From assembly GCF_021653975.1 (NCBI RefSeq), contig NZ_JAJKFK010000008.1, positions 62,001 through 126,000 on the forward strand: DNA of 64,000 nt, given 5' to 3'. A program made the translations under genes and the position numbers. The first letter of the stretch is position 1, and every line of letters starts with the position of its first letter. Positions 46,253 to 53,427 of this stretch are shown one piece after another. The stretch is from Amycolatopsis sp. GM8. GTDB lineage: Bacteria > Actinomycetota > Actinomycetes > Mycobacteriales > Pseudonocardiaceae. The notes beneath the pieces were generated by a model. The model was not told the origin of the DNA. It saw nothing but the letters and a program-made list of their open reading frames with translations, and made no database searches.

Positions 46253-46782
46253 TGGCACCGCTCGTCTTCGCGTCGGTCGGCACCGACCATCATCCGTTCG
46301 ACCGGCTCGTCGGCTGGCTGGACGACTGGGCGGCGCGGCATCGGGACATCACCGTTGTCGTCCAATATGGACATTCGCGGGCGCCCGCGGTTGCCACCGG
46401 CCATGCCATGCTCCCGCCGAGCCGGCTGCGCGAGTACATGGCGGACGCCGCGGCCGTCGTGGTGCACGGCGGCCCCGGGCTGATGCTGGATGCCTGGAGC
46501 AGTTCACGGCTGCCGATCGTCGTCGCCCGCGATCCGGCGATGGGCGAGCACGTCGACGGCCACCAGCTGGCTTTCGTCGACTACCTGCACCATCAGGGGC
46601 TCGTCGCGCCGGCCAGGACCGAGGACGAGCTGTCCGGGCACCTTTCGCGCGCGGTGGCCGACCCGGCCGCGTTCGCGTGCGAGCTGCGCGTGTCTTCGAC
46701 GGCCGAAACGGCCAGAACCGTGGGGGAGAACATCGCTCGGCTGCGGCCGCGCCGGCGCGTCATCAGAAGAGGGGAACGATGA
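46252..46782 (+). CDS. Alg13/EpsF-like glycosyltransferase catalytic subunit
   Basis: The protein has 176 residues with the GT28 C-terminal fold: PLVFASVGTDHHPFDRLVGWLDDWAARH (~3-30), VVQYGHSRAP, LREYMADAAAVVVHGGPGLMLDAW (UDP-sugar pocket with HGGPG), SSRLPIVVARDPAMGEHVDGHQLAFV. It pairs with the Alg14-like domain of the preceding protein, which anchors it at the membrane, to add a sugar to the lipid-linked intermediate. ATG at 46252 overlaps the previous stop (TGATG), and its own stop overlaps the aspartokinase start. Confidence 0.88.
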   Translation: MAPLVFASVGTDHHPFDRLVGWLDDWAARHRDITVVVQYGHSRAPAVATGHAMLPPSRLREYMADAAAVVVHGGPGLMLDAWSSSRLPIVVARDPAMGEHVDGHQLAFVDYLHHQGLVAPARTEDELSGHLSRAVADPAAFACELRVSSTAETARTVGENIARLRPRRRVIRRGER

Positions 46783-48023
46783 GTAGCAACCAGACACCAA
46801 CCGTGTGGAAGTTCGGCGGGGCTTCGCTGGCCGACCAGGGGCAACTGCGCGCGGTCGCGAAGCGGATCGCCGACGCGTACCGCGGCGGCCGCCGGATGGT
46901 CGTGGTCCTCTCGGCCATGGGGAAATGGACCGACGAGCTGCTTTCCCTGGCACGCGGTGTGTCGAGCATTTCCCAGCCGCGTGAGCTGGACACCTTGCTG
47001 TCGGTGGGCGAGCCGGTTTCCTGTGCGCTGGTGGCCATGGCGGTGACGGAGCTCGGCGTGCCCGCCGTGTCGCTGACCGGGAGCCAGGCCGGGATGCACA
47101 CCGACCGGCGGTACGGCGACGCGCGCCTGGGCGCCATCCGTCCACAAAGGATCATCACCGAACTCGCGGCGGGGAAGGTCGTCCTGGTCGCGGGTTTCCA
47201 GGGCACGGCCGCGAACGGTGACACGACCACCCTCGGCCGTGGTGGTTCGGACCTCTCGGCGGTGGCACTCGCCGCCGCGCTCGGGGCGCCGGAATGCGAG
47301 ATCTTCACCGATGTACCCGCGGTGTTCACCGCCGATCCTCACGTCGTGCGCGGCAGCCGCCGGATCGGCACGCTCCGGCACGAGCAGATGCTCGAAATGG
47401 CCGACGCGGGAGCGCGCGTGCTGCAGTCGCGATCGGTGGAACTGGCGCTGTCCCAAGGGGTCGACATCCATGTCCGGTCGAGTTTCACCGACGAGGACGG
47501 GACCTGGGTCCGGCGCAGCCCGGAAAAGCACGGCGGTGCCGGCGACGCGGTGATCGCCGTCGCGCACCGCGACCGTGAGCCGCTCTATGCCCTGAGCGAG
47601 GCGGGAAACCCCGCGGCGACCCTCGCGCAGCACGGCCTGACGGTCGTGGGCATGGCGCCGGTGGGCAACGAGATCCGCTTCACCACCGCCCAGGACGTCA
47701 CGCCGGGCGCGGTCGTTTCTGTGCTCGGCGAGAAGGTGACCGTTCGCAACGAGATGGGCAGCGTGTCCGTCGTTGGTGCCGCCGTCACCGACACTTCGCG
47801 GATGCTCAGCCGGATCCTCACCACCCTGGGCGCCGCGGGGGTCAAGATCGAGCTCGTCACGACACGGCCGTGGCGGGTGACGGTGCACGTGGAGACGAAG
47901 GTCGTCGCCGACGTGGCGCGCTTGCTGCATGAGGAACTCGTGCTCGCCCGCGCGGTGACGCAGGGCCTCGCCCCGCGCGTGCCGTCCGCACCGGTGGCCG
48001 CCGCGGTGAGGGGGAACCGGTGA
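46779..48023 (+). CDS. Aspartokinase dedicated to the diaminobutyrate branch
   Basis: The protein has 414 residues. The kinase domain includes VWKFGGASLAD (~9-19), VVLSAMGKWTDELL, LDTLLSVGEPVSCAL, FQGTAANGDTTTLGRGGSDLSAVALAAALGA and EIFTDVPAVFTADPHVV; the regulatory part holds two ACT-like segments (TVVGMAPVGNEI, VSVVGAAVTDTSRML). It phosphorylates aspartate, the first step to aspartate semialdehyde. It sits between sugar-polymer genes and the NRPS and aminotransferase that would use the semialdehyde, overlapping both neighbours (ATGA, GTGA). A feedback-resistant pathway-specific isozyme is the likely role; no semialdehyde dehydrogenase gene is in the window. Confidence 0.88.
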   Translation: MSSNQTPTVWKFGGASLADQGQLRAVAKRIADAYRGGRRMVVVLSAMGKWTDELLSLARGVSSISQPRELDTLLSVGEPVSCALVAMAVTELGVPAVSLTGSQAGMHTDRRYGDARLGAIRPQRIITELAAGKVVLVAGFQGTAANGDTTTLGRGGSDLSAVALAAALGAPECEIFTDVPAVFTADPHVVRGSRRIGTLRHEQMLEMADAGARVLQSRSVELALSQGVDIHVRSSFTDEDGTWVRRSPEKHGGAGDAVIAVAHRDREPLYALSEAGNPAATLAQHGLTVVGMAPVGNEIRFTTAQDVTPGAVVSVLGEKVTVRNEMGSVSVVGAAVTDTSRMLSRILTTLGAAGVKIELVTTRPWRVTVHVETKVVADVARLLHEELVLARAVTQGLAPRVPSAPVAAAVRGNR

Positions 48024-52051: not shown

Positions 52052-53427
52052 CCGAGACGACCACCCCCGCCCACGCCGCGCTCGGCCCCTGGCCGCGAGT
52101 GCTGACCTCGTTGCCGGGTCCGCGGTCGGCGGAGCTGCTGACCCGGCAGCAACGGCGCGAGTCCAACGCCCGGGTCTACCCGAGGCATTTCCCGATCGCC
52201 GTCGCCGAGGCGTTCGGCAGCTATCTCCGCGATCTCGACGGCAACGTGTTTCTCGATTTCCTTTCCGGCGCGGGGGTTCTCTCGCTCGGGCACAACCATC
52301 CCGAGCTGGTGGCCGCGGCGGCGAGGCAGCTGGGGCTGTTCACCCACGGGCTCGATCTGGCGAGCCCGGCGAAGGACGCGTTCACCACCGCGCAGCTGTC
52401 GATGCTGCCGGACCGGATGCGGGACCGGATGAAGATCCAGTTCTGCGGGCCGGCGGGGGCCAACGCGGTCGACGCCGCGATCAAACTGTGCAAGACCGCG
52501 ACCGGGCGCGGCGGGATCGTCTCGTTCCAGGGCGGGTTCCACGGCAGCAGCCACGCCGCGATGGCGCTCACCGGGAACGTGGCGCAGAAACGGCCGATCG
52601 CGGACGGGATGCCCGGCGTCAGCTTCTTCCCGTTCTCCTCGTGTGGTTCGTGCCCGCTAGGCCTGCGGCCGGACTCGTGCGAGACGAACTGCGTCACGTT
52701 CCTCGAACGCACGCTGCGGGACCCCAACGGCGGGATTCCGCTGCCCGCGGCCGTGATCATGGAGATGGTGCAGGGCGAAGGGGGAGTGGTGCCCGCGCGC
52801 CGGGAGTTCGTGCGGCGCGTGCGCGAACTCACCCGCGAGCTGAACGTCCCGTTGATCGTCGACGAGGTGCAGACCGGATGCGGCCGCACCGGCACGTGGT
52901 ACGCGTTCGAGCAGTACGACATCGAGCCCGATGTGATCGTGGCGTCGAAAGCGCTTTCCGGGATAGGGCTGCCGGTCGCGATCGTGCTGTACGCGCCGGA
53001 GCTGGACCGCTGGCGGCCCGGTGCGCACACGGGCACCTTCCGCGGCAACCAGCTCGCGTTCGCCACGGGTGCCCGCGCCGTGGAGATCATCCGGCGCGAC
53101 GACGTGCTGGGCAACGTACGCGCTCGCGGCGCGCAGATCTCGGCCGGCTTGGCGGATCTGGCTTCGCGCCGCGGGATCTCGGAGGTGCGGGGGGTCGGCC
53201 TGATGTGGGGTGTCGAGCTCGCCGAACCGGACGACGGCCGGACGGTCGGCGAGCTGGCGCAGGACGTGCAGCACAACGCGTTGCGCGCCGGGCTGATCGT
53301 CGAGCTCGGTGGTCGCGACGATCGCGTGGTCCGCCTCCTGCCACCGCTCAACGTCACCGCCGCCGAGGTCGACGCGGCCCTCACCCTGCTGCGCCTGGCC
53401 ATCGACCAAGCCCTCCCCGGCACTTGA
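52048..53427 (+). CDS. dat: L-2,4-diaminobutyrate:2-oxoglutarate aminotransferase
   Basis: This 459-residue class III aminotransferase has GNVFLDFLSGAGVLSLGHNHPE (~68-89), MKIQFCGPAGANAVDAAIKLCKTATGRGG (~130-158, the diaminobutyrate-type block), VIMEMVQGEGGVVPA, LIVDEVQTGCGRTGTWYAFE and the PLP lysine in VIVASKALSGIGLP (~297-310). It converts aspartate semialdehyde with glutamate to 2,4-diaminobutyrate, as in siderophore and ectoine pathways. No ectA or ectC lies near; instead it follows the NRPS gene with an ATGA overlap, so the diamine is probably the NRPS substrate. It is the last gene of the operon. Confidence 0.87.
   Translation: MTETTTPAHAALGPWPRVLTSLPGPRSAELLTRQQRRESNARVYPRHFPIAVAEAFGSYLRDLDGNVFLDFLSGAGVLSLGHNHPELVAAAARQLGLFTHGLDLASPAKDAFTTAQLSMLPDRMRDRMKIQFCGPAGANAVDAAIKLCKTATGRGGIVSFQGGFHGSSHAAMALTGNVAQKRPIADGMPGVSFFPFSSCGSCPLGLRPDSCETNCVTFLERTLRDPNGGIPLPAAVIMEMVQGEGGVVPARREFVRRVRELTRELNVPLIVDEVQTGCGRTGTWYAFEQYDIEPDVIVASKALSGIGLPVAIVLYAPELDRWRPGAHTGTFRGNQLAFATGARAVEIIRRDDVLGNVRARGAQISAGLADLASRRGISEVRGVGLMWGVELAEPDDGRTVGELAQDVQHNALRAGLIVELGGRDDRVVRLLPPLNVTAAEVDAALTLLRLAIDQALPGT

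Follow-up and report, generated by a model that had tools for sequence, protein, structure and literature searches.

Two gene clusters for polymers of 2,4-diaminobutyrate (Dab) are the closest described counterparts of the system considered here. The gamma-poly-L-Dab cluster pldA/dat/ask brings together a synthetase, a diaminobutyrate--2-oxoglutarate transaminase (DAT) and an aspartate kinase in one context (PMC8117764). The gamma-poly-D-Dab cluster pddA-D of Streptoalloteichus hindustanus contains the synthetase PddA, the transaminase PddC and the pathway-specific aspartate kinase PddD (PMC8225329). By gene content, both resemble three overlapping genes of Amycolatopsis sp. GM8 at 46779-53427 (+) of the window, which is the whole stretch of 64,000 nucleotides analysed (contig NZ_JAJKFK010000008.1, positions 62,001 to 126,000). 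These genes encode an aspartokinase (AK), a synthetase of the Pls/PosA type and a DAT, and they form the tail of an exopolysaccharide (EPS) operon. The likely reading is that a full poly-Dab cassette of the pldA/dat/ask type has been incorporated into this operon.

The published clusters differ from the window. The pddA-D cluster has a DapF-like racemase, PddB (PMC8225329), and the window operon is without one. No EPS genes are named in the figure legend that gives the context of pldA/dat/ask (PMC8117764), whereas the trio of the window stands at the end of EPS genes. The trio itself is known from clusters of these two types; its placement in an EPS operon is new. No earlier report tying a Pls-type synthetase or poly-Dab to an exopolysaccharide was found in the open-access literature searched.

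Two further synthetases are Pls, which makes epsilon-poly-L-lysine, and PosA, which makes delta-poly-L-ornithine. Both share with the window synthetase the layout of adenylation (A) domain, peptidyl carrier protein (PCP) and membrane domain, the family TIGR02353, and residues Asp1 and Glu3 of the substrate code. The posA gene of A. baumannii forms an operon by itself (PMC10522769), whereas the window synthetase shares its operon with genes for Dab supply. Discussion of what cationic homopoly(amino acid)s do in nature has centered on antimicrobial activity, and loss of posA by knockout changed biofilm only modestly (PMC10522769).

The Eight-Gene Operon

Eight co-directional genes extend from 41601 to 53427 (+), the first encoding a priming glycosyltransferase and the last the aminotransferase. 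The genome consists of 8.16 Mb in 22 contigs, and the window is part of one of them. In operon order, the junctions measure +2, +13, -4, -1, -4, -4 and -4 nt, the largest gap being 13 nt. AK, synthetase and DAT close the operon, with an overlap of 4 nt at each gene pair of the trio and at the junction between the Alg13-like gene and AK. A divergent open reading frame (ORF) starts 332 nt upstream of the operon. On the downstream side, 171 nt lie between the operon and the end of a convergent LuxR-type gene.

A first-pass annotation of this DNA had already described the trio and its overlaps, and a reading of the ORFs and their starts places the trio at exactly the same coordinates. It had also regarded the trio as the tail of a polysaccharide operon with a priming enzyme, Wzz and Alg13/14, which agrees with the family models and the overlaps.

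The Synthetase

The synthetase gene (48020-52051, +) begins with GTG and encodes 1343 residues. The protein was proposed at first pass to have the A-PCP-membrane architecture of Pls/PosA, and it scores 658.8 bits against TIGR02353 (cut-off 423.1), covering positions 2-695 of the 695 in the profile. The A domain spans approximately residues 31-508, the PCP 538-602 and the terminal membrane domain 627-1317. There are five Pfam matches, those to PF00501, PF13193 and PF00550 among them, and none is to a condensation or thioesterase family. The A-domain motifs and the carrier serine are present, the latter in the PCP motif LGANS.

Simple hydropathy reveals six segments, five of them strong and one weaker, with some weaker peaks elsewhere. 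The hydrophobic segments fall into three groups (approximately 624-693, 853-935 and 1114-1175); the family pattern is six helices in three pairs. When columns conserved in at least 97% of 64 relatives are taken as near-invariant, the window synthetase keeps 125 of 128; none of the 42 that lie in the terminal domain is lost.

Some relatives carry additional domains in the same protein. A phosphopantetheinyl transferase domain, PF01648, is listed among the precomputed domains of P0027, P0065, P0091 and P0093, and PF07786 occurs in P0020 and P0076.

The Substrate Code

By alignment, the code of the window A domain is DFECLSVVTK, with Phe236 and Glu239 (E224 of the protein). Glu at code position 3 is conserved and common to all cationic homopolymer synthetases (PMC10522769). 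The first-pass annotation had read the Glu at 239 as fitting a cationic side chain. The residue is indeed present, but Glu alone does not select Dab (PMC10522769). Position 2 has been proposed as a gauge of side-chain length, with Phe for 2,3-diaminopropionate (Dap) or Dab, Met for ornithine and Ala for lysine (PMC10522769). The window has Phe at this position, whereas Pls has Ala and PosA has Met, and the code as a whole fits a short diamino acid as the predicted substrate.

The code is a common one. Among 59 distinct full-length synthetases, window included, DFECLSVVTK was found in 30 and DAESIGTVVK in 19, while the other 10 have other codes. It also occurs in 109 of the 119 best other relatives (out of at least 7,951), and the remaining ten each differ by one residue.

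Synthetases for poly-Dap (PDAP) and poly-Dab (PDAB) are hard to separate by sequence (PMC10522769). Both have Phe at position 2, and the choice between Dap and Dab falls to the gene context. A match to DAT or an EctB-type transaminase lies near 21 of the 30 synthetases with code DFECLSVVTK, window included, in the regions examined. The code was rejected as proof of Dab over Dap because the other nine have no such match there.

An example of the same code in other surroundings is found in Actinomadura. In five loci (L007, L016, L020, L022 and L068), two divergent genes common to all five stand upstream of the synthetase, and no match to the window-type DAT lies beside it. In L007, the one locus of the five in which the pair was scanned, these genes encode M14 and M28 peptidases.

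Supply and Stereochemistry of Dab

The AK gene (46779-48023, +; ATG start, 414 residues) scores 294.5 bits against TIGR00657 for aspartate kinase (cut-off 208.7). The DAT gene (52048-53427, +; ATG start, 459 residues), the final gene of the operon, scores 441.5 bits against TIGR00709 (dat; cut-off 401.6). The best solved match of its product is 6RL5, a diaminobutyrate--2-oxoglutarate transaminase, and an SK motif is found at residues 300-301. Both identities had been assigned correctly at first pass, together with the statement that only aspartate-semialdehyde dehydrogenase (Asd) would have to come from elsewhere. Genome-wide, there are two aspartokinases above cut-off, one asd match, and one dapF match on another contig. 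The sole asd match sits directly after the housekeeping AK.

The window AK, the housekeeping enzyme and 21 AKs encoded at loci of relatives were aligned, and the alignment was read by eye. A segment of the first ACT domain is kept in the housekeeping enzyme and absent from the window AK, whose first ACT region is eroded, and from most of the 21; among these, it is partly retained in L076, and the L009 sequence is incomplete at this point. We take this segment to be the effector site, as in corynebacterial aspartokinase. Its absence suggests that the window AK has probably lost feedback control.

No candidate for a Dab racemase is present among the eight operon genes, and no second DapF was found in the genome. 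With one DapF match in the genome and no racemase candidate, poly-L-Dab is likelier than poly-D-Dab as the predicted product. The strain's own DapF, used as a query, gave 0 matches in the relatives' regions, a weak test given that PddB is only weakly similar to DapF.

Linkage of the Trio in Related Genomes

Neighborhoods of related synthetases were compared in 48 regions of at most 20 kb, 30 from the genus of genome G119 (taken as Pseudonocardia) and 18 from a search of the family Pseudonocardiaceae. The first set covers 31 of 40 listed matches; four more were already represented in the analysis, and the other five, partial or split, were omitted. The second set consists of the best 19 places besides the strain's own, minus the short contig L140, with 24 weaker places left out. 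Four of its 18 regions belong to the genus of the first set, and several regions stop at contig ends. Synteny was counted by tblastn; gene calling from codon composition missed the window DAT and lumped AK and DAT in one cluster.

The first-pass annotation had named a lack of linkage between the three genes in relatives as grounds for giving up its reading. AK and DAT were found together with the synthetase in 9 of the 30 regions of the first set and in 10 of the 18 of the second, or 19 of 48, an outcome in favor of that reading. Counted separately, the first set has a DAT or EctB-type transaminase in 17 regions and an AK in 10, and the second has them in 14 and 10. The genes are not always adjacent: DAT lies about 6 kb away in one region of the first set, and AK about 3.5 kb away in one.

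Natural fusions occur as well. Among the best 119 relatives, a DAT that is 74-80% identical to that of the window is joined to the synthetase in seven, and an AK in one. We take AK, synthetase and DAT to form one functional unit.

The EPS Genes

The operon starts with a polyprenyl-phosphate glycosylphosphotransferase, PGT (41601-43118, +; PF02397), which scores 355.7 bits against EPS_sugtrans, TIGR03025 (cut-off 295.55). It is followed by a CDP-alcohol phosphatidyltransferase-like protein (43121-43843, +; GTG start assumed; PF01066, 38.7 bits, cut-off 22) and a cytidylyltransferase-like protein (43857-44330, +; PF01467, with TIGR00125 above cut-off). The fourth gene (44327-46252, +) encodes 641 residues, in which a Wzz-like chain-length domain is fused to an Alg14/PssD-like glycosyltransferase subunit. 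Its C-terminal part scores 116.3 bits against PssD, NF041549 (cut-off 110); PF08660 is also above cut-off, and PF02706 is just below. An Alg13/PssE-like subunit comes next (46252-46782, +; PF04101, 24.8 bits, cut-off 22; NF041548, 56.4 bits, below its cut-off of 120). Its start is the ATG at 46252, and the family scans were run on a stretch two codons longer at the 5' end.

Further EPS genes stand downstream of the operon. These encode a GH16-type glycoside hydrolase (57719-58675, +; PF00722) with several in-frame starts, the true one perhaps further in, and a GT2 glycosyltransferase (59350-60282, +; PF00535; ATG start, with two codons more at the 5' end in searches). They are followed by a Wzy-like polymerase (60289-61527, +; PF04932, 19.8 bits, below the cut-off of 31.7) and a Wzx-like flippase (61524-62975, +; GTG at 61524, searches beginning one codon later; weak spore_V_B match). 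Together with the operon genes, they make up an EPS set of the Wzx/Wzy-dependent kind, in which PGT is above cut-off, Wzz and Wzy are below their Pfam cut-offs and Wzx is weak.

The identity of the locus is supported by two other genera of the same family, in which homologues of PGT, Wzz, Wzx and Wzy stand together. With 23 window proteins as queries, matches were obtained for 11 in one locus (L196, genome G083) and for 10 in the other (L204, genome G036). Both loci have matches to PGT, Alg14, Wzz, Alg13, the CDP-alcohol transferase, the cytidylyltransferase, GT2, Wzy, Wzx (beside Wzy) and a large secreted protein, and L196 has a weak GH16 match. They differ from the window in gene order, and their Wzz and Alg14 parts are separate and on opposite strands. 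Among the 150 genomes searched, own included, Wzy relatives occur in only these two others, and CDP-alcohol transferase relatives in 16 others. The latter gene is adjacent to the cytidylyltransferase (43121-44330 in the window) in 14 of the 16 family regions, and in the remaining two regions both genes occur, but not side by side. For the Wzz-Alg14 fusion, 7,999 scored candidates yielded only itself and one weak partial relative, and the genus only itself and a weak match to the Wzz part in genome G002.

In Rhizobium, PssA adds glucose (Glc) and PssDE then adds glucuronate (GlcA) (PMC7589315). The window likewise has a priming transferase followed by a two-part transferase like PssD/PssE of R. 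leguminosarum. It differs in the fusion of Wzz to the PssD-like part and in a PssE-like part that scores below the cut-off of its model, and the sugar specificity is a prediction from family resemblance. Provided that the homologues act alike, the resemblance of the sugar module to PssA/PssDE suggests that the window EPS is probably acidic, and hence anionic, with a start like Glc-GlcA.

Union of the Trio and the EPS Genes

The first-pass annotation had proposed a search for other genomes with the trio in an EPS operon, and none was found in the regions compared here. At E 1e-8, 0 of the 48 synthetase regions match any of nine window EPS proteins. Conversely, AK, synthetase and DAT have matches in 0 of the 16 regions around relatives of the CDP-alcohol transferase, and none in 20 kb of L196 or of L204. 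The synthetase search gave a match in 39 genomes; G036 is listed without one, and G083 is absent from the 39. Within the sampled genomes, the trio and an EPS set of the window type are joined in this genome only. The EPS queries were the window's own proteins, so that EPS genes unlike them would go undetected.

Among 80 named loci (of 134), several of which come from the same genomes as the 48 regions and were not added to the counts, in a Streptomyces locus (L037) a priming-transferase match lies at a distance of 4 kb on the opposite strand, and a Hyphomicrobiales locus (L015) has a weak flippase match. The EPS set was rejected as a fixed partner of the trio, on the result from the 16 CDP-alcohol transferase regions.

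Origin of the Cassette and Other Synthetases of the Strain

In a tree of 65 rows, the window synthetase falls into a set of 22 (SH-aLRT 98). Of the other 21 rows, 20 come from the genus of G119 and one from a Hyphomicrobiales bin; the genus supplied many rows of the tree, and its share in the set is partly due to sampling. The highest identity of the window synthetase to these relatives is 60%. After the strain's own two, the next matches in a search of its genus (18 other genomes) are a full-length one in G003 (54%), one in G002 (40%, residues 20-1110) and two in G013 covering the carrier and terminal part (47-48%). The simplest account is that the cassette was gained from a Pseudonocardia-like donor. 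Reservations arise from the end branch of the window, which is long (0.63, compared with a median of 0.17), and from the nearest fork, which has a support of only 88.

The genome encodes two further synthetases. The second (L118, G000:C21:258000-277900, at 5237-10646) has the same code, DFECLSVVTK, and adjoins an EctB-type transaminase (ectoine_ectB, 633.6 bits, cut-off 552.2). The third (L119, G000:C21:22000-41900, at 7572-12727) has the code DAESIGTVVK and is followed by an M1-type peptidase; an epsilon-poly-lysine synthetase with a degrading enzyme is an arrangement that has been described (PMC8117764). It is possible that this strain makes three cationic polymers.

A Proposed Mechanism and Its Alternatives

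In the proposed pathway, the dedicated and probably feedback-insensitive AK would form aspartyl phosphate, which the cell's Asd would convert to aspartate semialdehyde and DAT to L-2,4-diaminobutyrate. The synthetase would then adenylate L-Dab, load it onto the carrier domain and join the units via gamma-amide bonds in the membrane domain, giving gamma-poly-L-Dab. The transferases of the operon would meanwhile start the EPS unit. Because the trio genes overlap EPS genes, both polymers would be expected to be made simultaneously, and an acidic EPS could bind the polycation electrostatically. The biochemistry suggested at first pass is probably right. What the sequences establish is the gene content, the code and the linkage; enzyme activities, product, stereochemistry and the interaction of polymer and EPS are predictions.

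This leads to a tentative and rather doubtful extension, a dedicated two-polymer system in which one transcript would yield gamma-poly-L-Dab and a glucuronate-containing EPS, and the two, joined by charge or covalently, would form a polyelectrolyte matrix on the cell surface. Attachment to the polysaccharide or co-secretion with it, as the first-pass annotation proposed, is a possibility that only the operon structure suggests. If true, the role of a cationic homopolymer synthetase would here be structural instead of antibiotic, and the operon suggests a route by which bacteria could build polycation-polyanion material. An operon that couples poly-Dab and EPS synthesis is a concrete case for testing a matrix role of poly-Dab.

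Several observations weigh against a poly-L-Dab cassette integrated into EPS synthesis. The linkage of trio and EPS genes is seen in a single genome, the end branch of the synthetase is long, and 29 of the 48 family regions yielded at most one of AK and DAT. For nine of the 30 synthetases with code DFECLSVVTK, the region examined contains neither a DAT nor an EctB match, as in the Actinomadura loci beside peptidases. Three near-invariant columns are not kept, all in the A domain. In a comparison of the A domain with the PDB, Pls (7WEW, 254.7 bits) ranks 23rd and PosA (8G95, 251.7 bits) 27th, behind LgrA and other nonribosomal peptide synthetase proteins. As a substrate marker, similarity to solved Pls and PosA was dropped, as it does not discriminate. 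As for the L form, PddB is only weakly DapF-like, and a distant racemase could therefore escape detection.

The strongest alternative is that an ordinary poly-Dab antibiotic cassette was transferred and landed by chance behind EPS genes, so that the two would share a transcript and have unrelated functions. This is a serious possibility, though somewhat short of an even one. It would account for an arrangement seen in one genome only, for cassettes that stand elsewhere without matches to the window EPS proteins, for a similar EPS set that does without the trio in two other genera, and for the closest kin of the cassette lying in another genus. On the other hand, the 4-nt overlaps at all three trio junctions suggest settled co-expression and not a recent chance insertion. 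Moreover, the genome encodes another synthetase with this code, beside an EctB-type transaminase, which hints that the one coupled to EPS has a use of its own.

It is improbable that the synthetase uses Dap or another diamino acid and that its AK and DAT neighbors serve something else. Phe at position 2 is likewise found in PDAP synthetases (PMC10522769), and the same-code synthetases with no transaminase match nearby would be in keeping with such a substrate. Against it stand the seven fusions to DAT and the one to AK, the regions holding both genes (19 of 48), and the family scans of the eight operon genes, in which no pair for making Dap turned up.

Finally, the membrane domain might place single Dab units or short chains onto the polysaccharide, an aminoacylation of EPS with no free polymer, in line with the operon position, with the hexapeptide repeat matches of the synthetase in Pfam and with a model of the PosA terminal domain as left-handed beta-helices packed like sugar-nucleotide acyltransferases (PMC10522769), but this is very unlikely, as no acceptor-specific feature was seen and the 42 near-invariant terminal positions all agree with 64 relatives that are without these EPS genes in the regions examined.

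Neighboring Genes

The convergent gene downstream of DAT (53599-56379, -) lies outside the operon and encodes a LuxR-type regulator with an ATPase-like domain (PF00196 above cut-off, PF13191 just below). On the other side, two paralogous large proteins, probably secreted, flank a glycosyltransferase cluster (29166-31820, +, and 38692-41268, -). Both match one and the same gene per locus, in L196 and in L204.

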